Assembly (NCBI RefSeq): GCF_037975245.1
Contig: NC_092574.1
Span: 26,952,713 to 27,016,712 of the forward strand
Length of the DNA stretch: 64,000 nt
Direction of reading: 5' to 3'
DNA from: Apostichopus japonicus
Lineage: Eukaryota; Echinodermata; Holothuroidea; Aspidochirotida; Stichopodidae
Below, in pieces: positions 15,341 through 64,000 of the stretch. A program made the translations under genes and the position numbers. The notes below the pieces were generated by a model that did not search any database, was not told where the DNA came from, and saw nothing but the letters and a program-made list of their open reading frames with translations. How positions within the stretch are numbered: the stretch's first letter is position 1; each line of letters starts with the position of its first letter.

Positions 15341-15533
15341 CTTCACGGTTAGTTATTGGTGAACAAGTATCAGGAAAGAAGCAGTCAGTGTGATACGGTG
15401 CGATGCGTTGGACGTATGCATAGTGGTTTATTGTACGATTTGTGGTTTGAACACTTTTAGTTTATTTTTGTTAGTTTTAGTGAACACTCTATAGTTTTCT
15501 CCTTTTGAATGTGACGAGAGGCCAATATCAAGG

Positions 15534-27060: not shown

Positions 27061-27415
27061 GCAAGCTTTGTAATAAGCCTAGCGATGTTACAATTGTCAA
27101 TAGTCAATTATTTGCAAGGACTAAAATGTGGTAAAACGAAGATTATTTCATTTTGATATGAAGTAGACCACTAAAAGCCACTTCTACCAGTCCAGGTTCT
27201 AACATATATAACAGGTTTAGTTCTTGAGAAATTATCCCTTTAACTTCAGATGAGGTTCATCAGTTCAAGTGACTGGCCTGTGTAGTCTAACGCACAGAGC
27301 ATTAGGTCAGCAACTCAGATGCAACACAAAACCCAGTGGGAAAGCATATGACTCTGATGACCTCAAATGACATGTTTATAATTTGTTACAAATATCTCAA
27401 CAACAAATGCTGTTG

Positions 27416-27745
27416 GATATCATCCAACGATGCTATATATTGTTTACATGAAATTAAAATAACATATATTTGGTTGAGTTATATAACATAATGGATGAAC
27501 ATCTAACATTAAAGCCTGTATCGAGTAGTCGACGTCATCATCACTTTAGCCTTAAAGGACCATTCCATAGATTTAGCATATTTTAAAGGTGGATATCTAA
27601 AAACCCGGAATAGCTTGGAAATATTGCATTTTTTTTTGGACAAAACACATCAAGACAAAAATTATGCTTAAAGCTGAATATACTCAGTATATACAGTATA
27701 CCAAGGAGAAGTGACTCATCTATGAAATAGCCAATGTTTAACCCC
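27416..27745 (+). repeat. Copy of part of intron 1 of the membrane-protein gene
   Basis: Matches 16130-16450: ATAACATAATGGATGAA, GCCTGTATCGAGTAGTCGAC and TCACTTTAGCCTTAAAGGA are shared in the same order. It is the right-hand end of the partial locus copy. Confidence 0.75.
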
Positions 27746-35600: not shown

Positions 35601-37760
35601 GCAACAGATATTCATCGTTTATGCATATTCGTAAGTATTCTAAGCCACATACATTCAAACAATAAGCCAATTCGAAAGTATTCAAAGCCACAGATATTCA
35701 TAGTTTATGCCTATTTGTAACTTGTCTAATCCACATATATTGATAGTTTCAGCCTATTATAAAGTATTCTTAGCCATATATATTCATAGATTAGTCCTAA
35801 TGGAAGGATTCTAAGCCACAGTAATCATAGCTTAATCCTGTTTGTAACTTTTCTAATCCACATATATTCATAGTTTAAACCTATTCGTAAGTAATTTAAG
35901 CCACAGATATTCATAATTTAAACCTATTCGTAAGTTTTCTGAGCCACATATATTCATAGCTTATTCCTATTCTTAAGTATTCTCAGCCACAGATATTCAT
36001 AGTTTAAACCTATTTGTAAGTAATGTAAGCTACAGATATTGAAAGCTTTAACATATAAGATGTATTGTTAGCTACAGATATTCATAGATCAATCCTATTT
36101 GTAAGGTCCAAGCCAGAGATATTCGTAATTTAATCCTATTCGTAAGTATTGTTAGCTACAGTTATTCAAAGATTAAGCCTTTTCGTAAGTGTTCTAAGCC
36201 ACAGATATTCATAGTATAATCATATTCGTAAGTATTCTAAGCCCCATTTATTCATAGCTATAGCCTATTTGTAAATTATCTCAGCCACAGATATTCATAG
36301 CTTACGTCTATTTGTAAGTATTCTAAGCCACATATGTTCATAGCCTAAAGGTATTCATAAGTATTCGAAGCAACAGATATTCATAGTTTATGCATATTCG
36401 TAAGTATTCTAATCCACATATATTCATAGCTTAAACCTATTCGTAACTTTTCTAAGCCACATATATTCATAGTTCAATCCTATCTTAAGTATTTTAAGGA
36501 ACAGATATTCATGTTTTAGTTCTGTTTGTAAGTATTCTTAAGGCCCGGTCACACTATACCGATTTTTTATCGGAATACTATCCAATTTTCCCGGAGGAAT
36601 CGAAACAGCCAGTTTTTCGTTCGGGTCTTCTAGCCACAGTGATATAGGACCTGATTTGCTATCTGTTGAGCCATTCAGATGTGGAATAGCCCTCTCCTAA
36701 CTTTTGATATTGACTCCGTTTCCTTTTATCGGATAGCTATCCGATTTCTCTTCCGATTTTTATCGTTTTTCGATGTGACGTCACTTTAGAATGTAGTCCG
36801 TTCCAGAACCCCTCAGATTTGGAGTAGGTATTCGAATATTCCACTGCATTCATTACATTCACTACTACAAACCTCACTCTTCGGCCTAAAATCGGAAAAA
36901 TCGGACCGTACTCCGATAAAATATCGCTGTAGTGTGACCGGGCCTTAAGCCACAGATTTTCATAGTTTATGCCTATTTTTACTTTTTCTAATCCACATAA
37001 ATTGATAGTTTCAGCCTATAAGTAAGTATTCTAAGCCACATATATTCATAGATTAGTCCTAATGGAAGGATTCTAAGCCACAGTAATCATAGCTTAATCC
37101 TATTTGTAAGTATTCTAAGCCACATATATTCAACGATTAAGCCTATTCGTTAGTATTCTAAGCCACGGATATTCATAGTTTAATCCTATTTGTAAGTATT
37201 CGAAACCACAGATATTCATAAGGAAATGAGCTATGTAACTATTGTAAGCCACATATATTCATGAATAGGTTAACTGTGTTAATATTTTAAGTCACAAATA
37301 TTAATAGATACACCATTTTGTAAACGATGTAGCCACATATGTTTATAGATTAATCCTATTCTTTAGTATTCTAAGCCACATATGTTGGTAGATTACTCTG
37401 CCATGCAGGTCTTACATACCCATATATAAATATGATTCATATGTATTCTAAGCCATAGAAATTATTAGATTAACAAAAGTAAATTTGTTCAAGTCACAGA
37501 TATTCATAGATAGATCCATAATGTAAAGTGGTGTAATCCACAGATATTCATTGATTAATCTATTATTTAGGTCATAGATATATATAGATAAATATGATTC
37601 GTATGTATTCTAAGTCACAGATACTGCTAGATAAATCCATAATGTAAAGTGGTGTTAGCCACATATATTCATAGATAAGTGAACTATGTTAGTTTTGTAA
37701 TCCACATATATTCATTGATAAATCTGTTTCACGTAATTTGTGTAAACTACACATATTCCT
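32640..37760. repeat. 5.1-kb array of a 43-bp satellite, three subfamilies
   Basis: The core is AAGCCACAGATATTCATAG. Subfamily A (32640-33600) ends GATACAGCTGTTATGTTAG. Subfamily B (33600-37230) reads TAAGTATTCTAAGCCACAGA with TTTAATCCTATTCG. A diverged subfamily C runs to 37760. Both A and B consensus units are 43 bp. A marked variant (AATGGAAGGATTCTAAGCCA or a close form) recurs near 34505, 35793 and 37051, showing higher-order periods of about 0.85-1.3 kb once the inserted MITE is discounted. Confidence 0.93.
36542..36944. mobile_element. MITE with TTAA target duplication inside the satellite
   Basis: Terminal inverted repeats GGCCCGGTCACACTA and TAGTGTGACCGGGCC, flanked by TTAA at 36538-36541 and 36945-36948. 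Subterminal CCGATTTTTTATCGG and CCGATAAAATATCG extend the symmetry. 403 bp, no coding capacity. TTAA targets are used by piggyBac and Kolobok families; the GG start fits Kolobok-like better, but no transposase is present to decide. Confidence 0.9.
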
Positions 37761-38039: not shown

Positions 38040-41000
38040 CTCTGTCTCTAAGTGTCTGATTGTCTGCGTGTCTGATTGTCTGCCTGTCTGATTTTCTGCG
38101 TATCAGATTGTCTGCGTGTATGATTGTCTGCAGGTATGATTGTCTGCGTGCATGATTGTCTGCTTGTCTGCGTATCTGATTGTCTGCGTATCTGATTGTC
38201 CACGTGTCTGATTGTCTGCGTTTCTGCATGTCTGATTGTCTTGCATGTCTGTGTGTCTGGTTGTCTTGCATGTCTGACTGTCCGCGTGTCTGCGTGTCTG
38301 GTTGTCTGACTGTCTGCGTGTCTGATTATCCGCGTGTCTGATTGTCTGATTGTCTGCGTGTTTGCATGTCTGATTGTCTGCGTGTGATTGTCTGCGTGTC
38401 TGCGTGTCTGATTGTCTGCATGTCTGATTGTCTGCGTATCTAATTGTCTTGCGTGTCTGCGTGTCTGATGGTGCATGTCGGCGTATTTGATGTCTGCGTT
38501 GTCTGATTGTATGTGTGTCTGCGTACCTGCTTTTCTGCGTGTCTGCATGTTTGATTGTCTGTGTGTCAGATTTAATAGGTTTTGAATGTATGCGTATCAG
38601 ATTGTATGATTGTCTGCGTGTCTGCTTGTCTGCGTTTCGGATTGTCGTGTCTGTTTGTCTGATTTTCTGCGTGTTTTCGAGGCTGAATGTCTATGTGTTT
38701 GATTGCCTGCGTGTCTGATTATCTGAGTCCCAGATTGTCTGCGAGTGTGATTGTCTGCATGTCTGCGTATCTGCGTGTCTGATTGTTTTATTTTCTGCGT
38801 GGATGATTGTCTGATTGACTGATTGTCTGCGTGTCTGATTGTCTACATGTCTGTTTGTCTGAGTGTCTGCGTGTTTTGGTGTTTGACTGTCTGATTGTCA
38901 GCATGTCCACGTGTCCGCGTGTCTGCGTCTGTGATGGTCTGATGGTCTGTTTGTCTGTTTGTCACCGTGTCTGATTGTCCATGTCTCTGCGTGTCTGGTT
39001 GTCTGCTTCTCTGGTTGTCTGCGTGTCTGGTTGTCTGCGTGTCTGGTTGTCTGCGTGTCTGGTTGTCTGCGTGTCTGTGTATCTGATTGTCTGCAGGTCT
39101 GATTGTCTGATTGTCGGTGTGTCTGATTTTCTGATTGTCTGTGTGTCTGATTGTCTGCGTGTCTGATTGTCTTGCGTTGCGTGCGTGTCTAATGGTCTTG
39201 CGTGTCTGCGTATCTGAGTCTGATTGTTTGATTATTTTATTGTCTGCGTGGATGATTGTCTGATTGTATGATTGTCTGCATGTCTGATTGTCTGCTTGCT
39301 CTTTGTCTGATTGTCCACGTGTGTGATTGTCTGTTTTTGTGTTTTTCTGTTTGTGTGTTTGTCTGTTTGTCTACGCGTCTGATTTTCCGCGTCTCTGCGT
39401 GTCTGATTGTCTGAGTGTTGCGTGTCTGAGTGTCTGCATGTCTGTGTGTCTGATTGTCTACGTGTTTGCGTGTCTGATTGTCTGCGTGTCTGATGGTACA
39501 TGTCGGCGTATCTGATGTCTCCGTTGTCTGATTGTAGGTGTGTCTGCGTACCTGCTTTTCTGCGTGTCTGCATATCTGATTGTCTCCATGTCTGATTGTC
39601 TACGTGTCTGATTGTCTCCGTGTCTGATTGTCTGATTGTCTGCATGTCTGCTTGTCTAATTGTCTGCATATTCTATTATCTGATTATCCACGTGTCTGAT
39701 TGTCTGCGTGTCTGACTGTATGAGTGTCTGATTGTCTTGCGTGTCTGAATGTCCTGGGTGTCTGCGTCACTGATGTTCTTGCGTGTCTGACTGCATGCGT
39801 GTCTGATTGTCGTGGGTGTCTGCGTGTCTGATGGTCTTGTGTGTCTGCCTGTCCGTGTGTCTGATTGTCCGCGAGGCTGATTGTCTGCATGTCTTATTGT
39901 ATGCGTGTCTGATTGTCTTCTTTTCCGTGTCTGCGTGTCTGATGGTCTTGCGTGTTTGAGTGTCTGATTGTTTGATTGTTTTATTGTCTGCGTGGATGAT
40001 TGTCTGATTATCTTGCATGTCTGATTGTCTGCCTGCTCTTAGTCTGATTGTCTGCGTGTATGCGTGTTTACGTGTGTGATTGTGTATGCATGTCTGATTG
40101 TCTTGCGTGTCTGATTGTCCTGGGTGTCTGCGTGTCTGATTGTCCTGGGTGTCTGCGTGTCTGATGGTCTTGCGTCTCTGCCTGTCTGCGTGTCTGATGG
40201 TCTTGCGTCTCTGCCTGTCTGCGTGTCTGATTGTCTGCGTGTCTGACTGTATGCGTGTCTGACTGTATGCGTGTCTGATTGATCTGCGTGTCTGATTGTC
40301 CTGAGTGTTTGATTGTCCTGAGTGTCTGCGTGTCTGATGGTCTTGCGTGTCTGCCTGTCTGCATATTTGCTTTTCTGCGTGTCTGATTGTCTTGTGTGTC
40401 TTGCGTGTTTTATTGTCTGCCTATCTGATTGTATGCGTGCCTGATTGTCTGCGTGTCTGATTGTCTTGCGTGTCTGCGTGTCTAATGGTCTTCCGTGTTT
40501 GAGTGTCTGATTGTTTTATTGTCTGTGTGGATGATTGTCTGATTGTCTGCATGTCTGATTGTCTGCTTGCTCTTTGTCTGATTGTCTGCGTGTCCACGTG
40601 TTAACGTGTGTGATTGTATGATTGCCTGATTGTGTGATTGTCTGTTTGTCTGTTTGTTTGCGTGTCTGATTGTACGCGTCTCTGCGTGTCTGATTGTCTG
40701 AGTGTTGTGTGTCTGAGTATTTGCGTGCCTGATTGTCTGCGTGTCTGCATGTCTGCGTGTCTGATGGTCTTGCGTGTCTGCCTGTCTGCCTGTCTCATTG
40801 TCTGCGTATCTGATTGTCTGCGTGTCTGATTGACCGCGTGTCTGATTGTCTACGTGTGTCTGATTGTCCACGGGTCTGATTGTCTGCGTGTCTGATTGTC
40901 TGTGTATCTGATTGTTTGCGTGTCTGATTGACCGCGTGTCTGATTGTCTACGTGTGTCTGATTGTCCGCGGGTCTGATTGTCTGCGTGTCTGATTGTTTT

Positions 41001-42690
41001 TGTATCTGATTTTCTGCTTATCTTATTTTCTGCGTGTCTGATTGTGTGCGCGTCTACGTGTCTGATTGTCTGCGTGTATGATTGTCTGCATGTTTGATTG
41101 TCTGCGTGCATGATTAGCTAGGTTTTGATTGAATGCGTATCAGATTGTATGATTGTCTGCGTGTCTGCGTGTCCGCGTGGGTGCGTGTGTGATGGTCTGA
41201 TTTTCTGTTTGTCTGATTGTCTGCGTGTCTGATTGTCTGATTGTCTGCGTGTCTGAGTGTCTGATTGTCTGGTGTGTCTTGCCTGTCTTATTGTCTTGCG
41301 TGTCTGCGTATCTGTGTGTCTGATTGTTTTATTGTCTGCGTGGATGATAGTCTGATTGTCTGCATGTCTGATTGTCTGCTTGCTCTTTGTCTTATTGTCT
41401 GACTGCCCACGTGTATGATTGTGTGATTGTCTGTTTTTGTGTTTGTCTGTATGTTTGCGTGTGTGTTTGTCTGCGGGTCTGATTGTCCGCGTTTCAGCGT
41501 GTCTGATTGTCTGCGTGTCTAATTGTCTGCGTGTTTGCATGTCTGATTGTCTGCGTGTCTGATTGTGTGCGTGTCTGATTGTCTGCATGTCTGATTGTCT
41601 GCGTGTCTGATTGACCGCGTGTGTGATTGTCTGCGTGTCTGATTTTCTGCGTGTCTGATTGTCTGCATGTCTGATTGTCTTGCGTGTCTGCGTGTCTGAT
41701 TGTCTGCGTGTCTACGTGTCTAAGTGTCTAATTGTCTGCGTGTCTGCATCTCTGATTGTCTGATCGTCTGTGTGTCCGATTGTCTGATTGTCTGAGTCTC
41801 TGCGTGTCTGATTGTCTTGCGTGTGTTATTGTCTGCGTGTTTGATTGTCTGCGTATCTGATTGTCTGCGTGTCTGATTGTCTGCGTATCTGATTATCTGA
41901 TTGCCTACGTGTATGATTGTCTTCATGTCTGATTGTCAGATTGTTTGATTGTCTGTGTGTCCGATTTTCTGATTGTCTGAGTCTGTGCGTGTCTATTTGT
42001 CCGCGTGTCTGATTGTGTGCGTGTCTTTTTGTCCACGTGTCTGATTGTCCGCGTGTCTGATTGTCCGCGTGTCTGATTGTCTTGCGTGTCTGCGTTTCTG
42101 ATGCTCTTGCGTGTTCTGCTTATATGCGTGTCTGTTTGTCTGATTGTTTAATTGTCTGCGTGGATGATTGTCTGATGGCTTGCGTGTCTGATTGTCTGTT
42201 TGTCTGATTGTCTGCGTGTCTGCGTGTGTGATTGTCTGATTGTCTGTTTGTCCGTGTCTCTGCCTGCCTGAGTATCTGTGTTTCTGATTGTCTGACAGTC
42301 TGATTGTCTGCGTGTCTGATTGTCTGCGTGTCTGATTGTCTGCGTGTCTGATTGTGCGTGTCTGATTGTCTGTGTGTCTGATTGTCTGCGTGTCTGATTG
42401 TCTGCGTGTCTGATTGTTTGCGTGTCTGATTGTCTGATTGTCTGTTTGTCTGTTTGTCCGAGTGTCTGATTTTTCGCGTCTCTGTGTCTGATTGTCTGTG
42501 TGTCTGATTGTCTGCGTGCCTGATTGTCTGCGTATCTGATTGTCTGCGCATCTGATTGATCTGCGCGTCTGATTGATCTACGTGTCTGATTGTCTGCGTG
42601 TTTGGTTGACCTGGCTGTTTTCGCGTCTGGTTGCTCTGGTTGTCTTCGCGTCGGCTTGATCTGATTGTCTAAGCGTCTGGTTGATCTGAT
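38040..42690. repeat. 4.6-kb satellite built on a 16-bp unit, with higher-order repeats
   Basis: The base unit is two 8-mers, GTCTGATT and GTCTGCGT. Longer variants mark higher-order units: a TGTCTGCGTGGATGATTGTC block recurs near 38795, 39238, 39985, 40520, 41335 and 42150. A block with CATGTCGGCGTAT recurs at about 38473 and 39496, and one with GCGTATCAGATTGTATGATT at about 38590 and 41134. The minus strand stays open over long runs (for example 40482-41111, 209 codons of QSDTQTIRHADN-like repeats) because 16 nt is prime to 3 and the unit lacks stops in all three phases on that strand. I see no sign that it is a gene. Confidence 0.93.
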
Positions 42691-49265: not shown

Positions 49266-50357
49266 GAACAGTGACATCATTACAGCGTTGATCCCTACAT
49301 ACACAGGGTAGCCAATGACGGATGAAGGATTTCGGAAGGGGCGTGTGCCTCACCCTACCCCTCCATTTTTGACGTTTCCATTTCCCCTCTCTCACTAATT
49401 ATCTATATATATACTATATATGGTCTATCATAACGCGTGTATATATATATATATATATACCCCTGTTGTGAAGGTCAACTCCCTAGTTCAACTGCCATAG
49501 ACAATCTACACAAATCAAGCATGGTGTTGTATTACGCATTGGCCATTGACGTTCGTACACTTTTAAATATTCATATTATGGGCGCGGTTAATTTGGATCC
49601 CATCGGAAAAATATCTACGAGAAAAACAAAGTTGAAAGTTGTCAATTTTTCGACTTTTATGCCACCATTAGAAGTAAGATTTGCATAGATAAGCTAGTTA
49701 TGTATGTCGTTATAGTATCGTGGAATCAGTGAGGTTGTGAAAAACCATAGAAAAGGACGCAAAATGCTGTTATAAGGATACAGCCCTTATGCATGCATGC
49801 ATATCAATACAACCATTCATTAAACTTAAACTTCCTGATTCTTAAAATAGGAACAAAGCAAAATGACTTTGTCCTCCCATGAATGGCTACGCAGCCATAC
49901 CAAGCTAGTTATGCAGGTTATGGCTGTATATAGGTTGCACGGATTACTTCATTCATGGTCTTTATAGCGATGACGAACGTATGCACGGATCAGTAAAGCA
50001 TTGCAGTGGTGTTATATTACGGGGGTGACTATAAGCTTTGCTGTCGTCAGTTGTATTTAGCACTACACAAAACCTGCAATATAAAGCATTCATTGAAATT
50101 ACTGGTGAGTACGTCTAGTTTTGTCTTTTGCTTTTTTATAACCATCTTCAGCTTTTAAGCCAAATTTTAATTTGACTTGATTAAAATAGATTAGATTTGA
50201 CTATTCAATCGATTAAATTGAAGTTATTTGCGACTAACATCTTACAAGATCCACAAAATTCAACCTGTGCCATTGCCCGTGTTGGGTCGTAGACAAAGTT
50301 TACATTCAAACAATTGTACATTAGCACTGTTCTGATTGATTGATATACCCTCATTAG

Positions 50358-51002
50358 CAGGGGCGTCAAACTGATTTGAAACGTGGGGGGGGGGCGTAAT
50401 CGATTGGAGTTTTCCGGCCGTAAGTACTATCTAAGCGGACCGCCATCATCGATCAGCGCGCAGCGTACCAAGAAAATTTTCAGATTTCAATACCTGCCAG
50501 ATCGCTCGAGGTGGCACTTGCCAAGCTGGATAGCAGCCATCTAGTTGCGTGATTCCGGGAGAAAATGACAAATTCGTCACTCAGGAAATCTGCAATAAAG
50601 TTCATGCGGCCTTAATTTTTGGTGGATTATTTCTTTTTTTAGTGAATCATATTGACATGAGCATATGAAGTGCAAGTTGACGAATAATGCGGCGAACTAG
50701 AAACCCCAGCCCCATTTTGCCCTATGTTTCAGGATAGAATACCCCTCATTTGTTCGAACCCATGACAACTAACAATCTTTGAATAAAATCTCGGTCACTT
50801 TTCATAGAACTGAACTTCTAATATTCGATGATATGAATCCTGAGATGTGTAAGCCCTAAAAAAATAGAGCCACGACACTACTCTTTCCCCAAATGTGTTT
50901 GTGTGTGTCGGGGGGGGGGGGGTAGCGTTCATAGTGTGTCCTCCAGCCATCGAAATGTGGGGGCGTGTCCCCCGTCCCCTAACCCTAGGATGGACGCCCA
51001 TG
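50358..51002. mobile_element. hAT-type MITE in unit A
   Basis: Left end CAGGGGCGTCAAACTG and right end GGATGGACGCCCATG. Flanks CTCATTAG (50350-50357) and CTCATAAG (51003-51010) match at 7 of 8. The orthologous copy in B is 57368-57993, so insertion predates the duplication. Confidence 0.8.
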
Positions 51003-51702
51003 CTCATAAGATCCGTTTTGATGTAGCCATAAAAATTATATAGAAGCGTACAAAGATTCTAAATCTAAAGGGTTCTATTACCTCATATCCCTACATGTAA
51101 TATAGGCCTAAAGGGAAATGTGAGGAAGTTCATGTGTGGGTGCGTGCGTATGTGTGTAAGTGGGTGATGAGTGAGTGAAGGAGTGGCCCAGCGGAGACAT
51201 TGGAAATACTATAAAGTGTATTGTCATGTCATAATCTCTACTGTCTTCATCACTGAATTTCATCTTTTCTTGCGAATTCTCTTGAAATTTCCACATTTAA
51301 CATCTAAATGTCGAGTTTTCATCTCAAATTATGGACGTTTTAATATGTCGATATTCCGGAGTTTTATATCAAAATTTCGACGTTTTATTTAGAAATGTTG
51401 AACATTTCGTCTGGGAATTTCAGTTTTATCTAACATTTACGACATTGATCTCAAAAACTCGACAATACGGCTCATGTTTTGTGGCTATGCTGTTTATTTA
51501 AACTCGTCACAAAATACGAAAATGTTGAAAGTTTGACCCAATTTTTCCTCATTTGGCTTCCGAACTTGATTTATTTTTTATTTTCCGGAAAGAACACACT
51601 GATTTATTTCTCGGGAGAGCTCTCTCTCTCACTCACTCTAAAAAAAAATTTATGGATGTTCATATTTTGCATTTTTACGCTCCTTTTTCTCAGCCGACTG
51701 CC

Positions 51703-52398
51703 ATGTATTCCTTCGGAAATATCATCTTTTTTGCAATAACGCTGGTTTCTCCGATCAACCTTGACGCAGGAAATGTGTGCACGGATGGGACAAGATTTAC
51801 CCAGTGTGGAGCTCTTCAATTGACGGCCGAACAGATTGCGAACATTGACACAGACAGAGTGAACCAGCTTAGAAATACTATGATGAACTTACCGGGTGGC
51901 AGAGGTCCATTGGTGGAGAATCACCCTGGTATTCCAACAAACTTACTTCAACCGATCGTCAATTTCACGGACGAGCAGCTAGCGGTATACGAATCCAAGT
52001 ACCCGCCGTACGTATTATAAACATCGAAAATGGTGATATTAAATAATGATACGACGGTTTACTATGATTAAGAATAATCGTTTGTAGTGTCTATTTTACG
52101 GACATTCAGCTGCAGGTCGGTATGTATGATTTATAGCTAACTTACAAGTAAAAAATAATCATAATAATAATGATAATAAATAAGGAAAAAACCCCGCAAG
52201 ACGTTAACATTATGCATATGAGTGGAATTAAAAAAAAATAATCATAATAAGATGAACAACTGGAGATCAGAATATCCCAATAAAGTAACGCTACGCCGAT
52301 CGTTGCATTATGTAATGCTGTAAAACTCATTTTGCAAGTGTAAAACAAGAAACATTACAAGTTGACTACACATAGCCTGAGAAAAGAGGAACATCTAC

Positions 52399-52480
<82 letters not shown>

Positions 52481-52766
52481 CATTAACCTCTTTCGAGATC
52501 CGGCTTTAGGAATCACAAATGATTTTCGAGTTGGTTAGCATCATGTTTGATCCTTAGAGTAAGGCAAAATATGTCACCAAAACAGAACTAGTATTGTTCG
52601 ATACAGGTGACAAACGCCTAAAGTGGAATTACGACTTTCCTTACCGGTTTCGAACCTCTGGACATACAATCAGCGTCCATGGCCTAGTGGTTAGGGTGTC
52701 CGCGTACAGAGCGGAAGGCCCGTGGTTCGAATCCCGGTGGAGGCTGAAAGTTTTTCACTGTTCATG

Positions 52767-52851
<85 letters not shown>

Positions 52852-54112
52852 CCTGTTGGTCAAAATATATTCTTCACTGGAAGCACTGTAGACTGTTCTT
52901 CAACAGTTCCATTTTGCAATTGATCATTACAGCAGAAACTGTGAAGGTCGCACATGCCTAGCTCGAAAAAAACGAAGCACTGGATCCGCGATATGCAACG
53001 GAAATGGATATCAAACGGTGTTATTCGCTTTAACAACATCTGGTGGCGTTTTGCAATTTATCTCAGTAAGTATAGAAAAAGTTATAGAAACGCTTAAAAT
53101 TAAAGTTCGCTAACAATTGCTTGATATATTTTCTTCTTCTTAGCGGCTACGATCCGCCCCCAAATTAGTTACAGCCATTGATGAAGAAGAAGCACGCACG
53201 ACTGACTACTGCATGTTATGTTAACTCCGGGGCACTACTCCCAACTCACATCTTCAGTCAGGGGCAAATGGTCCTGCCGGAAGGTTTTATTTACATTAAG
53301 CCTGGGGGAATTAGGCTGCATACTTACGGGTGTACCCCTTCCCCAACATCACACACAATACCTATCAGCACAACCTTGCATTCACAGCTGCCTAGGTAGA
53401 TCTACATTGTCTTAATATGCCTCAGAATGCCCCCGTTAGACGTCTCACACTTACTTCATTCTGGGGGAGATCCCCAGACCCACAGCATGGGGAATCTACT
53501 CTAAAGACCAGAGGACCCACACTTCTTTGAAAAGTCTTTCCTGTGCTCCTTCTATACAGGTTCTGCCTCTGCCCATACCTAAATCAGTCGGGGGGGGGTA
53601 AATTTTCTTCCCCTCCCTCACCACCACCTCTGGAATCCTGGGCACACAAATGATCGACAGACAACGATGCATTTACTTACATAGCTGCTGATAATAAGAC
53701 ACTCATGTGTTGCAGTGCCACATCGTCACCCGCAAACTTCAATTTTGTTAAATAATGTTATACATGGTTTTCTCTTCTTCAACTATCAGTTGGTAAATAA
53801 TAATTACAGAGAGTTCTTCTAAGACCTGATCTTTCCCTGAGATCATGATAAAAATCGACCCACAATGGGCATCTTTAAGGGACATTAAGCCAGACCATTA
53901 AGGACTCGTCCAGCATGACAATGTTTGCCTTTCTTTTTACTTCATATCTTCAGGTTGATTTGTATTTTTCCCTTGGTTGTACCGGTGCTAGTCTCTGCTG
54001 CCAAGAAGAAATATGTCTACCACTCTTCGGCTACAGTGTCAGTCCTCCCTACGTAGCGAGAACTTTCGAAATTATCCTAAGGAGATGCACACTTTGTAGG
54101 CCTACCAATTAG
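51703..54112 (+). CDS. Putative secreted cystine-knot-like cytokine/growth-factor precursor, copy A
   Basis: Three exons inferred: 51703-52007, 52933-53065 and 53954-54112, giving 198 aa. Splice phases agree (2, then 0), with acceptors TTACAG and ATATCTTCAG and donors GTACGT and GTAAGT. A CTCAG acceptor lies 9 nt before the ATG, so a 5' UTR exon is likely. Order of parts: signal peptide (MYSFGNIIFFAITLV, about 1-22); propeptide with C26, C35, C105, C110 and one N-glycosylation site (N87); furin-type site RKKR at 113-116; mature domain with seven Cys at 123, 155, 161, 162, 167, 191 and 194, ending FEIILRRCTLC. A furin site before a short Cys-rich, strand-like domain ending in a Cys pair is the layout of Spaetzle/neurotrophin-type cystine knots; I do not see decisive homology. 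If exon 1 is read without splicing it stops at 52020, giving a 105-aa secreted protein. Copy B keeps every signal. Confidence 0.6.
52402..52848. repeat. Two (AT)n microsatellites in intron 1 of copy A
   Basis: Pure AT runs at 52402-52478 and 52771-52848. The first is shorter in unit B (59822-59874) and the second is absent there. Confidence 0.95.
52673..52745 (+). tRNA. tRNA-like sequence (probably pseudogene or SINE head), unit A
   Basis: 73 nt that fold with tRNA arm lengths: acceptor GCGTCCA/TGGAGGC (one mismatch), D arm with AGTGGTTA loop, perfect anticodon stem TCCGC/GCGGA with loop GTACAGA (anticodon would be ACA), and T loop TTCGAAT. The T stem has two mismatches. A-box and B-box motifs are intact. 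ACA is not a usual anticodon for Cys, which argues against a working tRNA. It lies inside intron 1 of the secreted-protein gene. Confidence 0.4.
53144..53224 (+). other. Alternative terminal exon of copy A
   Basis: A strong acceptor (TTTTCTTCTTCTTAG) 78 nt after the exon-2 donor, in phase 0, opens a frame of 26 codons (RLRSAPKLVTAIDEEEARTT, then DYCMLC) and a stop. Using it gives a 172-aa protein with the furin site but without the second half of the Cys-rich domain. The exon is identical in unit B. It could be an alternative 3' exon or retained-intron by-product. Confidence 0.4.
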
Positions 54113-54197
54113 CCTGTAGTTATAGCTGGTACCTGGATGAAAGCATAGAAATATAAGTAATCATTGTAGTGAGATACAGTGTTCTGTTATAATATGA

Positions 54198-54203
54198 AAT
54201 AAA
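54198..54203 (+). terminator. Poly(A) signal AATAAA, copy A
   Basis: AATAAA 86 bp past the stop at 54112. The matching site in unit B reads AATATA, so copy B would need a later signal (AATAAA near 61712). Confidence 0.45.
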
Positions 54204-55708
54204 TATCTCCTAGCTATATAACTACAACGGTTCGCACACTCCATTGTAAAGAACTTGTTTAAATAATCTTACTTACTATTTCTACATATATATCTGAAGT
54301 GTTTTATCACATTCTGCTTTCTTTTTGATATTTGATAGATCTTTGATCGCCTTTTTATAAATATTTGCTACTTATACTGGTTTTAATAAATTAAATAAAA
54401 GAAGAAGTAAATCAATTGTATTGTTGAAATGATCTAAAATCAACTTCGATTTCAGATGCGATAGATGGTCTGTTGTTTTCTCATTTGTCTCTTGTAATTG
54501 GTTCTTTGCAGCTACTTGCTAATTGGGCTTACTATACTAGTAATAATTAATTAATTAATTAATTTAAAGGTGTGATTAATCCCATCAATAACCACTATGT
54601 AACTTACAATATATCCACTCGAGTTTTGCAGTGAGTGAGTTTCGCGATCACAGGAGACTCTTGTAAAGTCTAAATTATCACTTGTATGGTTCGGTGTACG
54701 TAATCCTTGTTTTCGTTACCTGCATGTTTATTTCTGCATGTGATTTAACTATTTTCATCGATTTAATTCCAGATTAATTAACTAAGCGAAGAAGAAAAAG
54801 ACAAATAAACCGATGCAAAATCAACTCGAAATTTGTATTTCGTTTTTTTTTCTCGGAATGATCAAGGCGATAACTTTTAAGTTTCGTAGCCTAACATTTA
54901 ATCAACTCTATGGACTGTACCTATTCGCATTCACCCGACGCGATCGGGAGCCCCATCCCGTACATAATATTAAAAATTGGCTTATTTTATGGACGATATG
55001 TATATAAACAAATAGTAGATAGTTTTGCAACTTGTAAGAGGTATTTTGTTCAGGTTTAAGCCTATAAATATATATGACATGAGTATTTTGAAGACGACCA
55101 GCATTACAGCTCAGTGAAACACCATGCATTATCACTCTAATATTAAAATGATATTCCTTATAGCCGCTGTAACGCCCCCCCCCCCACTCCCCATCTCTCC
55201 CACAATCTGAACAATGCGAATTGCATGCACTTGATCCAGGGAGTGTGGAGTGTACATTCCCACTGATAGGAGGGGGTGGAAAACCCACTCCTTATCACTT
55301 AGTTTCAACCGCACAAAAAGTAGCTATTGTCACAACCGTTCGTGTAGATCTGTTTACAAAGACCTAACTAATAGCCTTAATATGCCCCACAATGCACCAT
55401 TTCATGTCTCAAATTTAAATAATTAAGTTCCTAGAGAATACCCCCCCCCCCCAGACCCCCTGAATGAATAGTCGGCTTCAACGACCTCAAAGCCACACTC
55501 CTCTCCTAAAAATGAAATCCTGCACCCACAGTTGGCTGTATCTCTCTAAGCTGTGTTGTCTATATTTTCTATCGAGGTGATCCAAAACGTCGAGTTGGTA
55601 ACTTGGTACAACCATGGAGGTAACCTCCATGGTACAACCAGCCAGCAAGCTGAACTCTAACTGCTCCCTGGTACAACTGCCATAGACAATCTACACAAAT
55701 CACGCATG
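54204..55708. other. 3' flank of copy A within the duplication
   Basis: No further gene is supported. A frame at 54813-55007 and its longer partner in unit B (62009-62335) differ in start and length between the units and lack a family signature. A perfect palindrome, CCATGGAGGTAACCTCCATGG (interrupted here as CCATGGAGG / TAA / CCTCCATGG in description), lies near 55612-55632; poly-C runs occur near 55176 and 55441. Confidence 0.45.
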
Positions 55709-55717
55709 GTGTTGTAT

Positions 55718-56521
55718 GGAAGCAGTTCACTTCGCCCAACAACCATTTCGCCCAACTGCCATTTCACCCAACCTTACCATTTCGCCCAACCAGCCTGGTC
55801 ATTTCGCCCAACCAGCCTGGTCATTTCGCCCAACCGGCCTGGTCATTTCGCCCAACCAGCATGGTCATTTCGCCCAACCGTGTTGGTCATTTCGCCCAAC
55901 CTTATTTTTACTAATATTCTATTCCACTAGTGCAATATGATTTATTTTGGGTTATATTATTGGAAGTTATATTATTATCATATGGAAGTTAATTATTATA
56001 CAAGCAAAGTGGAATCGGTGTGGAATAATATAACCGTTTCTATTTCACTAGTTCAATTTTTTTAACCACGACTTCAAGTTTCCTTAATACTCGGTTCGTA
56101 TCCCGTAACGTTAACAATTCTCGAACGTTTACTATCAAACCTATCAAACTAACCCCTAAAACACTGATCCATCCTCAAGATTCCTTAATATTCGGTTCGT
56201 ATCCTGTAACGTTAACAATTCCCGAACGTTTCCCTACTAAAGTAATACAAAGTAAAGGACTTCAGTTTCCTTAATATTCCTTAATATTCGAACGTTTACT
56301 ATCAAACCTAACCCCTAACACACTGATCCATCCTCGGTTCGTATCCTGTAACGTTAACAATTCCCGAACGTTTCCTTTTGAAGTATCTTATTTAATCAAG
56401 GTTGGGCGAAATGACCAGGCTGGTTGTGCGAAATGACCAGGCTGGTTGGGCGAAATGACCAGGCTGGTCGAGCGAAATGGCAGTTGGGCGAAATGGTTGT
56501 TGGGCGAAGTGACTAGAAAGC
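55718..56521. mobile_element. Mutator-like element with subterminal tandem repeats at the unit junction
   Basis: Long inverted arms: GGAAGCAGTTCACTTCGCCC on the left, GGGCGAAGTGACTAGAAAGC on the right. Each arm carries tandem 22-bp units (CCAGCCTGGTCATTTCGCCC type): about five full and several shorter units on the left, three on the right. The 9-bp flanks GTGTTGTAT (55709-55717 and 56522-56530) are identical. The centre has three diverged copies of a GTAACGTTAACAATTCCCGA block. 804 bp, no coding capacity. Confidence 0.85.
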
Positions 56522-57367
56522 GTGTTGTATTACGATTGGCCATTGACGTTCGTAAACTTTTAAATATTCATATTGTGGGCGAGGTTTATTTGGATCCCAT
56601 CGGAAAATATCTTCGAGAAAAACAAAGTTGAAAGTTGTTAATTTTTCGACTTTTATGCCACCATTTGAAGTAAGATTTGCATAGATAAGCTAGTTATGTA
56701 TGTCGTTATGGCATCGTGGAATCAGTGAGGTTGTGAAAAACCATAGAAAAGGACGCAAAATGCTGTTATAAAGGATACAGCCCTTATGCATGCATGCATA
56801 TCAATACAACCATTCATTAAACTTAAACTTCCTGACTCTTATAGGGACAAAACAAATGACTTTGTCCTCCCAGGACTGGCTAAGCAGCCATACCAAGCTA
56901 GTTATGCAGGTTATGGCTGTATATATATAGATTAATGGCTACAGTTGCACGGATTACTTCATGCATGGTCGTTATGGCGATGACGAACGTTATACGGATC
57001 ATTAAGCATTGCAAGTGCTGTTAAATTACGGGGGTGACTATAAGCTTTGCTGTCGTCAGTTGTATTTAGCACTACACAGAACCTGCAATATAAAACATTC
57101 ATTGAAATTACTGGTGAGTACGTCTATTTTTTTATATATATATTTTTTTAACCATCTTCAGCTATTAAGCCAACATTTAATTTGATTTGATTTAAATAGA
57201 TTAGATTTGACTATTCAATCGATTAAATTGAAATTATTTGCGACTAACATCTTACAAGATCCACAAAATTCAATCTTTGGCACTGGTTGTGTTGGGTCGT
57301 AGACAAAGTTTGCATTCAAACAATTGGACATTAGCGCTGTTCTGATTAATTGATATACCCTCATTAG

Positions 57368-57993
57368 CAGGGGCGTCAATCGGATTTGAAACGTGGGGGG
57401 GGGGGGGTCGTAATCGATTGGAGTATTCCGGCCGTAAGTACTATCTAAGCGGAGTGCCATCATCGGTTAGCGCGCAGCGTACCAAGAAAAATGTCAGATT
57501 TCAATACATGCCAGATCGTTGGAGATGGCACTTGCCAGGCTGGATACCAGCCATCTAGTTGCGTGATTTCGGGAGAAAATTGCAAATTCGTCACTCATGA
57601 AATCTGCAATAATGTTCATGCGGCCTTAAATTTTGGTGGATTATTTCTTTTATTAGTGATTCTAATTGACATGAACATTAGAACCCAGTGCAAGTTGACA
57701 AATGATGCGGCGAACTAGAAACCCCAGCCCCATTTTGCCCTATGTTTCAGGATAGAATACCCCTCATTTGTTCGAACCCATGAAAACTAACAATCTCGGT
57801 CACTTTTCATAGAACTGAACTTCTAATATTTGATGATATTAATCCTGAGATGTGTAAGCCCTAAAGAAATAGAGCCACGACACTACTCTTTCCCAAATGT
57901 GTGTGTGTGTGGGGGGGGGGGATAGTGTGTCCTCCGCCCATCGAAATGTGGGGGAGTGTCCCCCCGTCCCTTCCCCCAGGATTGACGCCTATG
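57368..57993. mobile_element. hAT-type MITE in unit B
   Basis: Left end CAGGGGCGTCAATCGG, right end GGATTGACGCCTATG. Flanks CTCATTAG (57360-57367) and CTCATTTG (57994-58001) match at 7 of 8. Same insertion as 50358-51002. Its inverted ends (GGCGTCAATC) are better preserved here than in unit A. Confidence 0.82.
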
Positions 57994-59123
57994 CTCATTT
58001 GATCCGTTTTGATGTAACCATAAAAATTAGATAGTAGCGTACGAAGATTCTAAATCTAAAGGAATCTATATTTTACCTCATATCCCTACATGTAATATAG
58101 GCCTATAGGGAAATGTGAGGAAGTTAATGTGTGTGTGTGGGTACGTGCGTTCGTATGTGTGTAAGTGGGTGATGAGTGAGTGAAGGAGTGGCCCAGCGGA
58201 GACATTGGAAATACTATAAAATGTATTGTCATGTCATAATCTCTACTGTCTTCATCACGGAATTTCATCTTTTCTTGCGAATTCTCTTAAAATTTCCACA
58301 TTAAATATCTAAATTTCGAGTTTTCATCTCAAATTATGGGCGTTTTTATATGTCGATATTCCGGAGTTTTATATAAAAAAAAAAAACATTTCGTCTGGGA
58401 ATTTTATTTTTATCTAACATTAACGACATTTATCTCGAAATTTCGACAATACGGCTAATAATTCAGTGTGACAATTTATTTCGATTGTTCGAGAAAAGTC
58501 CTGACGTTGCTAGGGAATGTGAGATTTTCGTCAGGACGAACATATATTGTTGTGGGACAGAAAAGTCAGTACTGCCACAAACGGCGTTCAACAGTATTGA
58601 TATACCCTTGTGAACGACTAATACTCTTTCTTCTCCCGTAAGTCTTCAAGTTTTCCCCAGGGTCAGTTTTTGTTTTATATTTGAGTAATATTCTTCACAT
58701 TAATTTATTTCATTCTATGAATCAATTTATTTCTCTGATCCCTCTGTCAAATTAAAAACATTTCCCGTAAGTTAGTCCTCCTCGAAGTTCCTGCTTAAGG
58801 ATCGAACTTGATTTCCGCGATGCTTTCTAAAACTTTGACAATATTCCTACACTGCAGGCTCCTTGCAATAGCTAAGATATCGATAAGTTTTATTTTTCTT
58901 CTGTTTTTGTGGTTAAGCTGTCAATATAAACTCGTCACAAAATACGAAAATGTTGAAAGTTTGACCCAATTCTTCCTCATTTGGCTTCTGAACTTGATTT
59001 ATTTTTTATTTTCGGGAAAGAACACATTTATTTCTCGGTAGAGCTCTCTCCGCTCTCACTCTAAGTCTTTTTATCGATTTTCGTATTTTGCATTTTTACG
59101 CTCCTTTTTCTCAGCCGACTACC

Positions 59124-59818
59124 ATGTATTCCTTCGGCAATATCATCTTTTTCGCAATAACGCTGGTTTCTCCGATCAGCCTTGACGCAGGAAATGTGTG
59201 CACGGATGGGACAAGATTTACCCAGTGTGGAGCTCCTCCCTTGACCGCCGAACAGATTGCGAACATTGACACAGACAGAGTGAACCAGCTTAGAAATACT
59301 ATGATGAACTTACCGGGTGGCAGAGGTCCATTGGTGGAGAATCACCCTGGTATTCCAACAAACTTACTTCAACCGATCGTCAATTTCACGGACGAGCAGC
59401 TAGCGGTATACGAATCCAAGTACCCGCCGTACGTATTATAAACATCGAAAATGGTGATATTAAATAATGATACGACGGTTTACTATGATTAAGAATAATC
59501 GTTTGTAGTGTCTATTTTACGGACATTCAGCTGCAGGTCGGTATGTATGATTTATAGCTAACTTACAAGTAAACAATAATCATAATAATAATGATAATAA
59601 ATAAGGAAAATACCCGCAAGTTGTTAACATTATGCATATGAGTGGAATTAAAAAAAATTAATCATAATAAGATGAACAACTGGAGATCGGAATATCCAAA
59701 TAAACTAACGCTACGCCGTTCGTTGCATTATGTAATGCTGTAAAACTCATTTTGCAAGTGTAAAACAAGAAACATTACAAGTTGACTACACATAGCCTGA
59801 GAAAAGAGGAACATCTGC

Positions 59819-59876
<58 letters not shown>

Positions 59877-61439
59877 CATTAACATAAAGTCTGTTCAAAG
59901 TATCTCTTTCGAGATCCGGCTTTAGGAATCACAAATGATTTTCGAGTTGGTTAGCATCATGTTTGATCCTTAGAGTAAGGCAAAATATGTCACCAAAACA
60001 GAACTAGTATTGTTCGATACAGGTGACAAACGCCTAAAGTGGAATTACGACTTTCCTTACCGGTTTCGAACCTCTGGACATACAATCAGCGTCCATGGCC
60101 TATTGGTTAGGGTGTCCGCGTACAGAGCGGAAGGCCCGTGGTTCGAATCCCGGTGGAGGCTGAAAGTTTTTCACTGTTCTTGATTTATTGGTCAAAATAT
60201 ATTCTTCACTGGAAGCACTGTAGACTGTTCTTCAACAGTTACATTTTGCAATTGATCATTACAGCAGAAACTGTGAAGGTCGCACATGCCTAGCTCGAAA
60301 AAAACGAAGCACTGGATCCGCGATATGCAACGGAAATGGATTTCAAACGGTGTTATTCGCTTTAACAACATCTGGTGGCGTTTTGCAATTTAACTCAGTA
60401 AGTATAGAAAAAGTTATAGAAACGCTTAAAATTAAAGTTCGCTAACAATTGCTTGATATTTTTTCTTCTTCTTAGCGGCTACGATCCGCCCCCAAATTAG
60501 TTACAGCCATTGATGAAGAAGAAGCACGCACGACTGACTACTGCATGTTATGTTAACTCCGGGGCACTACTCCCAACTCACATCTTCAGTCAGGGGCAAA
60601 TGGTCCTGCCGGAAGGTTTTATTTACATTAAGCCTGGGGGAATTAGGCTGCATACTTACGGGTGTACCCCTTCCCCAACATCACACACAATACCTATCAG
60701 CACAACCTTGTATTCACAGCTGCCTAGGTAGATCTACATTGTCTTAATATGCCTCAGAATGCCCCCGTTAGACGTCTCACACTTACTTCATTCTGGGGGA
60801 GATCCCCAGACCCACTGCATGGGGAATCTACTCTAAAGACCAGAGGACCCACACTTCTTTGAATAGTCTTTCCTGTGCTCCTTCTATACAGGTTCTGCCT
60901 CTGCCCATACCTAAATCAGTCGGGGGGGGGGTAAATTTTCTTCCCCTCCCTCACCACCACCTCTGGAATCCTGGGCACACAAATGATCGACAGACAACGA
61001 TGCATTTACTTACATAGCTGCTGATAATAAGACACTCATGTGTTGCAGTGCCACATCGTCACCCGCAAACTTCAATTTTGTTAAATAATGTTATACATGG
61101 TTTTCTCTTCTTCAACTATCAGTTGGTAAATAATAATTACAGAGAGTTCTTCTAAGACCTGATCTTTCCCTGAGATCATGATAAAATTCGACCCACAATG
61201 GGCATCTTTAAGGGACATTAAGCCAGACCATTAAGGACTCGTCCAGCATGACAATGTTTGCCTTTTTTTTTACTTCATATCTTCAGGTTGATTTGTATTT
61301 TTCCCTTGGTTGTACCGGTGCTAGTCTCTGCTGCCAAGAAGAAATATGTCTACCACTCTTCGGCTACAGTGTCAGTCCTCCCTACGTAGCGGGAACTTTC
61401 GAAATTATCCTCAAGAGATGCACACTTTGTGACGAATAG
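59124..61439 (+). CDS. Putative secreted cystine-knot-like cytokine/growth-factor precursor, copy B
   Basis: Exons 59124-59428, 60265-60397 and 61287-61439, 196 aa, with the same phases and splice sites as copy A. Signal peptide, four propeptide Cys, RKKR and all seven mature Cys are kept. Differences from A: N19S, L38P, Q39P, Y129F, I145N, R182G, R190K and a changed tail (RPTN against DE); about four silent changes accompany about eight replacements. That ratio is near neutral for so young a pair, so conservation between the units is weak evidence for coding, though no disabling change has arisen. The upstream flank contains about 420 bp absent from unit A, which may change its 5' UTR or promoter. 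Confidence 0.6.
59822..59874. repeat. (AT)n microsatellite in intron 1 of copy B
   Basis: Pure AT dinucleotide run, the counterpart of 52402-52478. Confidence 0.95.
60089..60161 (+). tRNA. tRNA-like sequence, unit B
   Basis: Same 73-nt sequence as 52673-52745 except for one change in the D loop (TAGTGG against TATTGG). Same reservations: two T-stem mismatches and an ACA anticodon. Confidence 0.38.
60476..60556 (+). other. Alternative terminal exon of copy B
   Basis: Identical in sequence and phase to 53144-53224, with the same polypyrimidine acceptor. Confidence 0.4.
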
Positions 61440-63043
61440 CTTGTAGTTATAGTTGGTACCTGGATGAAAGCATAGAAATATATGTAATCATTGTAATGAG
61501 ATACAGTGTTCTGTTATAATATGAAATATATAGCTCCTAGCTATATAACTACAACGGTTCGCACACTCCATTGTAAAGAACTTGTTTAAATAATCTTACT
61601 TACTATTTATACATATATATCTGAAGTGTTTTATCACATTCTGCTTTCTTTTTGATATTTGATAGATCTTTGATCGCCTTTTTATAAATATTTGCTACTT
61701 ATACTGGTTTTAATAAATTAATTAAGAAAAGAAGTAAATCAATTGTATTGTTGAAATGATCTAAAATCAACTTCGATTTCAGATGCGATAGATGGTCTGT
61801 TGTTTTCTCATTCGTCTCTTGTAATTGGTTCTTTGCAGCTACTTGCTAATTAGGCTTACTATACTAGTAATAATTAATTAATTAATTAATTTAAAGGTGT
61901 GATTAATCCCATCAATAACCACTATGTAACTTACAATATATCCTCTCGAGTTTTGCAGTGAGTGAGTTTCGCGATCACAGGAGACTCTTGTAAAGTCTAA
62001 ATTATCACTTGTATGGTTCGGTGTACTTAATCCTTGTTTTCGTTACCTGCATGTTTATTTCTGCATGTGATTTAACTATTTTCATCGATTTAATTCCAGA
62101 TTTATTAACTAAGCGAAGAAGAAAAAGACAAATAAACCGATGCAAAATCAACTCGAAATTTGTATTTCGTTTTTTTTTTCTCGGAATGATCAAGGCGATA
62201 ACTTTTAAGTTTCGTAGCCTAACATTTAATCAACTCTATGGACTGTACCTATTCGCATTCACCCGACGCGATCGGGAGCCCCATCCCGTACATAATATTA
62301 AAAATTGGCTTATTTTATGGACGATATGTATATAAACAAATAGTAGATAGTTTTGCAACTTGTAAGAGGTATTTTGTTCAGGTTTAAGCCTATAAATATA
62401 TAATATGACGAGTATTTTGAAGACGACCAGCATTACAGCTCAGTGAAACACCATGCATTATCACTCTAATATTAAAATGATATTCCTTAGCCGCTGTAAC
62501 GCCCCCCCCCCCACTCCCCATCTCTCCCACCATCTGAACAATGCAAATTGCATGCACTTGATCCAGGGAGTGTGGAGTGTACATTCCCACTGATAGGAGG
62601 GGGTGGAAAACCCACTCCTTATCCCTTAGTTTCAACCGCACAAAAAGTAGCTATTGTCACAACCGTTCGTGTAGATCTGTTTACAAAGACCTAACTAATA
62701 GCCTTAATATGCCCCACAATGCACCATTTCATGTCTCAAATTTAAATAATTAAGTTCCTAGAGAATACCCCCCCCCCCAGACCCCCTGAATGAATAGTCG
62801 GCTTCAACGACCTCAAGGCCACACCCCTCTCCTTAAAATGAAATCCTGCATCCACAGTTGGCTGTATCTCTCTAAGCTGTGTTGTCTATATTTTCTATCG
62901 AGGTGATCAAAAACGTCGAGTTGGTAACTTGGTACAACCATGGAGGTAACCTCCATGGTACAACCAGCCAGCAAGCTGAACTCTAACTGCTCCCTGGTAC
63001 AACTGCCATAGACAATCTACACAAATCACGCATGGTGTTGTAT

Positions 63044-63295
63044 GGAAGCAGGTCACTTCGCCCAACAACCATTTCGCCCAACTGCCATATCACCCAACCT
63101 TACCATTTCGCCCAACCAGCCTGGTCATTTCGCCCAACCAGCCTGGTCATTTCGCCCAACCGGCCTGGTCATTTCGCCCAACCAGCATGGTCATTTCGCC
63201 CAACCAGCCTGGTCATTTCGCCCAACCTTATTTTTACTAATATTCTATTCCACTAGTGCAATATGATTTATTTTGGGTTATATTATTGGAAGTTA
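63044..63295. mobile_element. Left part of the Mutator-like element at the end of unit B
   Basis: Repeats 55718-55970 (GGAAGCAGGTCACTTCGCCC and the 22-bp units) directly after GTGTTGTAT, then changes to unrelated sequence. The right arm is missing, so this copy cannot be mobilised. Confidence 0.85.
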
Positions 63296-63548
63296 TAATT
63301 TATTTCCAATAAATCATGTATTCATGGTTTGCCGAGCATATATTTGCAATGAGCTGGGATTTACGTCTTTGGGGAGTAGGTGGTGATGCAAACTACTTTT
63401 TACCAGGCTACTCCAGTCCATTTCATCTTGGATGCCCCCTTCCAGATGGAGACTATTGATGCAGTCAGAGTGCCCCTCTCACCTTCACTTTTTATCAGAA
63501 TGATGGTGTACTCTTTTCGCAAATTTATTTTACAAAAAAATACACGCA

Positions 63549-63720
63549 CAGTGGCGTAGCTAGGAATTTTTTGAGTGGGGGGCCATGGGGGGCTGTTCTT
63601 TCTTGTGGGGGGCCGGAGGTTACTATCTAAGCGGAGCGCCACCTTGGTTGGCGCGGAGCGTACAGAGAAAATTTGAGATTTCAGCACCCCCAGATCACAG
63701 GAGATGGCACCTGTGAGGCA
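63549..63720. mobile_element. hAT-type MITE, left end
   Basis: CAGTGGCGTAGCTAGGAATT, then ACTATCTAAGCGGAGCGCCA, GGCGCGGAGCGTACAGAG and CAGATCACAGGAGATGGCAC, the same internal blocks as the elements at 11885, 48570, 50358 and 57368. No right end was found before the window stops. Confidence 0.65.
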
Positions 63721-64000
63721 AAATAGCAACCATGCTGACTGGCCTTGCCAACTCAGCCAGACTTTGACCTTGAGGGAAGTTGGCATCATTTGTCGTTTCA
63801 AGCTGTCAAGGCCTTTCTTCCAACTCAAACCCCTGTGGGCTACCGGTAGATTTGCAGGATATGCCCACATGTGGACTTAAATAGCATTATAGAGGAAGGG
63901 GATGGAAGACTAACACGCATCGATGTTTCGGTAATGGTCCACATTGGTGGCTCGGTGCTAATTAGGCCATTAATTGGGTTTCTTGAGGCAGCTGTCATCA
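63721..64000. other. Window edge, nothing recognised
   Basis: No gene or repeat identified. It could be the interior of the MITE that starts at 63549, or a passenger. Confidence 0.3.

Follow-up and report, generated by a model that had tools for sequence, protein, structure and literature searches.

The duplicated locus

In the 64,000-nucleotide stretch of Apostichopus japonicus DNA analyzed here (contig NC_092574.1, positions 26,952,713 to 27,016,712; hereafter the window), self-BLAST identified two direct tandem repeat units, each with a single plus-strand gene of three exons. Table 1 lists the two genes, A and B, with their parts. The first-pass annotation of the window had proposed a tandem pair of three-exon genes, and both the repeats and the proposed junctions were borne out: in copies A and B alike, every intron has GT-AG ends and the phases are compatible (2, then 0). 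The product is predicted to be an orphan secreted, furin-type-cleaved, Cys-rich protein, for which the gene model is well-founded. We tentatively favor the view that it is a cystine-knot-like ligand.

Table 1. Coordinates of the repeat units, of genes A and B and of their parts, as positions in the window.
Feature	Position	Strand	Description	Basis
First unit, copy A	49524..56521		direct tandem repeat	self-BLAST
Second unit, copy B	56522..63304		direct tandem repeat	self-BLAST
Gene A	51703-54112	+	three exons, 198 aa	splice model, translation
Gene A exon 1	51703..52007	+	hydrophobic N-terminus 51703-51768 (residues 1-22), most of propeptide (Cys 26, 35)	translation, hydropathy
Gene A intron 1	52008..52932	+	phase 2; contains two TA runs and a tRNA-like (SINE-like) element	
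Gene A exon 2	52933..53065	+	propeptide Cys 105 and 110, RKKR, first mature-domain Cys	
Gene A RKKR	52964..52975	+	residues 113-116, furin-type site	translation; cleavage predicted
Gene A intron 2	53066..53953	+	phase 0	
Gene A exon 3 with stop	53954..54112	+	mature-domain Cys 2-7, tail RPTN	
AATAAA motifs downstream of A	54198, 54385, 54394 (54198..54399)	+	possible polyadenylation signals	
Gene B	59124-61439	+	three exons, 196 aa	splice model, translation
Gene B exon 1	59124..59428	+		splice model
Gene B exon 2	60265..60397	+	RKKR at 60296-60307	
Gene B exon 3 with stop	61287..61439	+	tail DE	
AATAAA downstream of B	61712	+		

Three blocks of copy A (49524-51475, 51477-52772 and 52856-55976) match three of copy B (56522-58459, 58905-60188 and 60188-63304) with identities of 88.7%, 94.9% and 98.05%, respectively. 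The 445 bases at 58460-58904, which lie approximately 220-665 bases ahead of the ATG that starts gene B, are unmatched in unit A. We regard genes A and B as a tandem pair from a young duplication. No third copy of the gene was found by tblastn within the window; a candidate at 63611-63733, which resembles 50416-50540 and 57430-57554, was rejected as a shared repeat that is present also at 48607 and 11944.

Substitutions between the copies were counted by region. In the coding exons they numbered 7/305 (exon 1), 2/133 (exon 2) and 9/150 (exon 3); of the last nine, six fall in the realigned tail past the last Cys, and three in the 144 positions up to it. The introns carry 28/836 (intron 1) and 6/888 (intron 2), and the flanks 15/891 (3' flank), 23/219 (the 225 bases before the ATG) and 140/1897 (far upstream). 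The 582 coding bases compared show 4.5 silent and 7.5 amino-acid-changing differences. None of the nine indels lies in the coding exons up to the last Cys codon, and one lies in the tail. The 5' regions are the most divergent part of the two copies. Because of this, and because of the unmatched 445 bases in B, the two copies may be under different regulation.

Gene models and splice signals

The first-pass annotation described the splice signals as good. When scored with general splice-site matrices and ranked among all GTs and AGs in the window, the donor and acceptor of intron 2 reached the 95th and 98th percentiles, and those of intron 1 the 88th and 82nd. 'Good' is thus a fair word for the signals of intron 2, whereas those of intron 1 are middling. 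In both genes exon 2 opens at a NAGNAG acceptor pair, with an alternative three bases on (52933/52936 in A, 60265/60268 in B). Left unspliced, exon 1 runs into a stop after 52017 in A and after 59438 in B. Transcripts that end there unspliced (at 52020 and 59441) are among the outcomes that the annotation had named as overturning the model. The stop is kept in both copies; the joint spliced anatomy is not reproduced by shuffled sequence, as described below. Intron 1 of both genes also contains a tRNA-Cys(ACA)-like sequence (52672-52746 and 60088-60162; Rfam tRNA, 48.7 and 46.6 bits), which is probably the head of a SINE.

The whole anatomy, defined as three exons with a hydrophobic start, R-x-[KR]-R and at least six Cys after it, appeared in none of 10,000 order-1 Markov shuffles (nor in any of 400 in an earlier run), while 214 of the 10,000 contained some chain of three exons behind a hydrophobic start. 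Since the gene was already known when the thresholds were chosen, the figure of 0/10,000 overstates the case. Among 176 overlapping tiles of the window, read on both strands, nine contained such a three-exon chain; the full set of features was present only in the two acceptor variants of gene B, no tile being long enough to hold the whole of gene A. A direct scan of A and B found two chains in each. No full-feature chain was present in 44 non-overlapping tiles, the borders of which split the real genes.

Coding composition was also high. The Fickett scores were 0.777 for the coding sequence (CDS) of A and 0.741 for that of B, compared to a background median of 0.448; of 300 background stretches, 8 reached the value of A. 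These scores can guide only roughly, because two control open reading frames (ORFs) with Pfam-supported domains scored lower than A and B (integrase, 0.651; OHCU decarboxylase exon, 0.637). The GC content of CDS A was 45.6% relative to a background median of 37.2%, and 13 of 300 background stretches were as high. We consider it very probable, judging from sequence, that this is a real spliced gene, and it is presumably transcribed.

The predicted protein

The layout of the protein agrees with that given in the first-pass annotation, which had listed a signal peptide, a propeptide of 80-90 residues, RKKR and a seven-Cys domain ending in C-x2-C. The signal peptide was called by hydropathy only: the best 9-mer at the N-terminus, IIFFAITLV, averages 3.13, and no 9-mer elsewhere in the protein exceeds 1.72. 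The propeptide would begin at about residue 23 and extend for about 90 residues to RKKR; it has four Cys (26, 35, 105 and 110) and the sequon NFT. The RKKR site lies upstream of a mature domain of about 80 residues, in which the seven Cys follow the order C-x31-C-x5-CC-x4-C-x23-C-x2-C. A signal peptide and R-x-[KR]-R ahead of a C-terminal domain are the marks of a secreted, furin-processed proprotein, and by sequence the protein has a hydrophobic N-terminus and RKKR in these places.

After the last Cys the copies differ through a 6-base indel (RPTN in A, DE in B). The mature part has a net charge of zero (4 K+R, 4 D+E) and is 33% V/I/F/Y/W/T, and the whole protein lacks Trp. An antimicrobial-peptide reading was set aside, since a cationic antimicrobial peptide carries a net positive charge and the mature part does not.

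Search for a family

Pfam searched at E 10 gave no credible match; the one report, an HGWP repeat at E 0.04-0.13, scored 12.3-13.9 bits against a cut-off of 21.9 and was discarded as noise. NCBIfam had no match to the protein, and a sequence search of the PDB had none to the mature domain or the whole protein. In this respect the first-pass annotation, which saw no clear family match, was correct. The Pfam models of the PDGF/VEGF, TGF-beta, IL-17 and Spaetzle/neurotrophin families did not report the protein.

The protein was also compared pairwise with a panel of 18 ligand sequences. Relative to shuffles, z was -0.1 for Drosophila Spaetzle, 1.2 for Aedes Spaetzle and 0.0 for NGF, and IL-17A was within 1.2 standard deviations (s.d.). 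TGF-beta 1 gave the best score of the 18 tried (z 4.4, with 3 of 2000 shuffles as high); the seven other sequences compared in the same set ranged from -0.1 to 1.2. TGF-beta 2 and 3 scored 2.4 and 2.5, and the other members of that superfamily (BMP2, BMP7, activin A, GDF8, GDF15, GDNF) were between -1.6 and 1.0. In a best-of-11 shuffle control, taken at the z values initially observed, z of 4.8 was reached in 17/2000 and, with Cys fixed, 3.8 in 64/2000 (about 1-3%). The pairwise positive controls performed as expected, with z of 18.8 (Drosophila-Aedes Spaetzle), 13.4 (VEGF-PDGF), 3.6 (Spaetzle-NGF) and 2.9 (IL-17A-VEGF).

Profiles were built from one to six sequences each and have little power. 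The TGF-beta profile gave -0.6 bits (209 of 400 Cys-fixed shuffles as high), NGF/Spaetzle -1.3 bits (137 of 400), PDGF/VEGF -2.7 bits (368 of 400) and IL-17 -0.5 bits (87 of 400); the TGF-beta 1 signal was absent from the profile test. With hhalign the query probabilities were 0.1-0.7%, which is uninformative, given that control pairs from a known superfamily gave 0.7 and 1.5%. Because the profiles are small and hhalign missed known superfamily pairs, a remote relation may still exist. No relative was confirmed in prokaryote genome contigs (28 and 44 pattern stretches) or viral contigs (5 and 19), collections not expected to hold animal genes. Full-text literature searches, judged by title and abstract, gave no description of this protein, which is no proof of its absence from print.

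Comparison with known ligand systems

Members of the growth-factor cystine-knot superfamily, as outlined in PMC4079206, have six knot Cys in order with bonds 1-4, 2-5 and 3-6, of which 1-4 penetrates the ring. The seven Cys of the mature domain are all present and can be assigned to such positions. In order only, the layout is closest to that of PDGF/VEGF with one interchain Cys removed: a Cys, about 31 residues, a Cys, a short gap, CC, a short gap, a Cys, a long gap, a Cys, a short gap and a Cys. The distance from Cys 1 to Cys 2 is 31 here, compared to 30 in VEGF-A and 32 in PDGF-B once their extra interchain Cys is dropped, and the CC doublet occupies the same ordinal place (Cys 3-4). The PDGF/VEGF signature is P-x-C-x4-R-C-x-G-C-C. 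Neither it nor the eight-Cys pattern of that family was found in the protein, which has seven Cys, C-x5-CC in place of C-x2-CC, a final C-x2-C and no sequence similarity. The eight-Cys pattern is described in PMC10328876, where loss of interchain Cys is said to be common among invertebrate members.

The annotation had pointed instead to Spaetzle/neurotrophin or, at the tail, to IL-17, and neither suggestion held up. Spaetzle is likewise a preproprotein with a basic cleavage site, and mature Drosophila Spaetzle also has seven Cys, but its spacings are 36-6-13-29-0-1, compared to 31-5-0-4-23-2 here, and its doublet is at Cys 5-6 rather than 3-4. Similarity over an NGF-type domain with its Cys spacing was absent from the pairwise and profile comparisons, and the Cys order is nearer to PDGF/VEGF. 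The IL-17 proteins are small, secreted, Cys-rich ligands, as is proposed for this one. Their domain is characterized by a CPW/SPW motif (PMC8353272) and four conserved knot Cys (PMC5457136, PMC8353272). A CPW/SPW motif is impossible in a protein without Trp, no IL-17 model was reported by Pfam at E 10, and scores were at the level of shuffles. In sea urchins the IL17 genes have one to three exons and lie mostly in tandem arrays (PMC5457136), and marine invertebrates including sea urchins are described as expanding small, Cys-rich IL-17 ligands in tandem (PMC5457136, PMC8353272). This expansion is a parallel, not evidence that the present protein is a cytokine.

TGF-beta resembles the predicted protein in its furin-type cleavage, C-terminal ligand domain and a CC doublet that precedes the last Cys pair by about 28-30 residues, and through the weak pairwise similarity to TGF-beta 1. 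It differs in that C-x-G-x-C is missing here, the end is C-x2-C and the profile score is that of shuffles. The TGF-beta propeptide is about 250 residues long, versus about 90.

Other features of the window

With immune regulation in mind, GGGRNWYYCC sites were counted; there are 9 in the window, compared to 2.4 expected; several are palindromes read on two strands or copies in both second introns. The only one within 2 kb upstream of either ATG is at 57953, about 1.2 kb upstream of B, and the sites were not used as evidence. An element at 55731-56508 and 63057-63304 carries an array of a 22-base unit (CATTTCGCCCAACCAGCCTGGT) at either end, the two arrays being oppositely oriented; at the end of unit B (63057-63304) only its first arm is present, and the region around 49455-49523 resembles the same site without the element.

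Elsewhere the window holds introns, a Gypsy-type integrase (9145-10263, minus strand) and a LINE-type endonuclease fragment (12233-12544). Exons of an OHCU decarboxylase (URAD-like) lie on the minus strand at 3348-3740, 4174-4530 and 23330-23629, supported by Pfam for the C-terminal part (PF09349, E 2.3e-18), the N-terminal part (E 1.1e-3) and a duplicate of the N-terminal exon (E 8.8e-4); the stretches 4208-4612 and 23364-23767 are 94.8% identical. Large satellite arrays occupy 38052-42601 (8/16-base units related to TGTCTGAT, with a strong A/T strand skew), 32669-37395 (43-base) and 1818-2603 (46-base, 17 copies, 97%). A Gln/Pro-rich ORF of 201 aa (19175-19777, plus strand) is followed 1.5 kb further on by an ORF with a hydrophobic stretch (21254-21559, plus strand). 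Neither matched a Pfam family at cut-off (DUF4190 at E 0.066 for 21254-21559). Direct duplicates are also present at 15292-15890 and 24454-25050 (84.9%) and at 16147-16463 and 27415-27739 (82.3%).

Discussion

The reading we favor, with a confidence that stops somewhat short of even, is that of an orphan-family ligand, cystine-knot-like, released by furin and probably a disulfide-linked dimer. Each repeat unit would provide one three-exon gene, the product of which enters the secretory pathway. A furin-type protease would cut after RKKR and free a beta-prone, seven-Cys domain of about 80 residues that is uncharged overall. Its first hairpin would be YQTVLFALTT-SGG-VLQFISVDLYFSLGC, its short center C-T-G-A-S-L-CC-QEEIC, and its second hairpin would end in FEIILRRC-TL-C. 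Since the Cys order is that of PDGF/VEGF minus one interchain Cys, the knot bonds might be Cys 1-5, 2-6 and 3 or 4 to 7, and the leftover Cys would join two chains; the odd number of Cys favors such an interchain bond. The propeptide may keep the domain folded and inactive until RKKR is cleaved. We infer the signal peptide, cleavage, disulfides, dimer, fold and ligand role from these features of the protein.

We favor this reading because the phases and GT-AG ends are kept in both copies, the anatomy was not reproduced by shuffling and coding composition exceeds that of most of the window; because no indel precedes the last Cys codon and the net charge is zero; and because the distance from Cys 1 to Cys 2 and the place of the CC doublet are like those of PDGF/VEGF. 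Several results weigh against it. No cystine-knot family was matched by sequence in Pfam, NCBIfam or the PDB, and all four cystine-knot profiles scored the protein no better than Cys-fixed shuffles. The spacing from Cys 5 to Cys 6 is 23, compared to 33 in VEGF-A and 36 in PDGF-B. The C-x-G-x-C and terminal C-x-C of the superfamily are replaced by C-x-G-x3-C(C) and C-x2-C. The first of these departures is not decisive, because NGF members likewise do not have the C-x-G-x-C spacing, but on account of both we do not claim membership in the superfamily. The structure prediction for exon 3 by itself lacked confidence (mean pLDDT 47.7, two sequences). When the 3-kb region was shuffled by a Markov model, 40 of 500 sequences contained an ATG-initiated ORF of at least 100 codons, which places exon 1 alone within chance. 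Purifying selection between A and B was not significant (pN/pS 0.51, Fisher p 0.29), and the divergence of the copies demonstrates neither constraint nor a lack of it.

The protein could be truly secreted, processed and Cys-rich and yet have no ligand role. Examples would be an inhibitor, or a component of mucus, matrix, egg coat or seminal fluid restricted to the lineage, folded around disulfides in its own way. The silence of all signaling families suits such a protein. So does a young tandem duplication in which, as far as the last Cys, 7-8 changing differences stand against 4-5 silent ones, as in fast-evolving secreted proteins; nor was a receptor or partner gene recognized within the window. 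The conserved RKKR before the Cys-rich part, the odd Cys number and the two beta-prone stretches would suit a proprotein ligand better, and we hold the non-ligand explanation to be a serious but doubtful one. A further explanation, that the gene model is wrong, takes exon 1 as an unspliced protein of 105 residues or a chance ORF, with exons 2 and 3 from elsewhere or pseudogenic remains copied by the duplication. It draws on the unspliced stop kept in both copies, the chance length of exon 1, the middling signals of intron 1 and the failure to demonstrate selection. The shuffles, however, never placed the features of a preproprotein in register, and both copies are intact, so that we consider it very unlikely.

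Distinctly improbable, too, is that the protein belongs to PDGF/VEGF, TGF-beta, IL-17 or Spaetzle/neurotrophin and has diverged so far in sequence as to escape the tools. The Cys order nearest to PDGF/VEGF, the pairwise scores with TGF-beta 1, 2 and 3 and the low power of hhalign speak for it. The TGF-beta 1 lead, however, is the best of 18, is not shared by the BMPs, activin A, GDF8, GDF15 or GDNF, is of a size that best-of-11 shuffles occasionally reach and vanishes against the profile, and the Pfam models of these families passed over the protein. Taken inside and outside known families together, a cystine-knot ligand has, in our estimate, a little over one half of the probability. The more specific proposal of an undescribed cystine-knot ligand family, one whose knot geometry is peculiar to it (C-x-G-x3-CC ... 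C-x2-C) and which in one animal lineage has recently duplicated and is diverging in the mature domain, is rather unlikely.

Short, multi-exon, Cys-rich genes escape unspecific homology searches, and a checked gene model is useful whichever explanation is right. If the product is not a cystine-knot ligand, it is one among many orphan secreted proteins. If it is, the secreted dimeric signals, a small set, would gain one more family, and this in a group of animals where most immune and developmental ligands are known through likeness to those of other phyla; the pair would then represent a ligand duplicated recently enough that its early divergence can be read.

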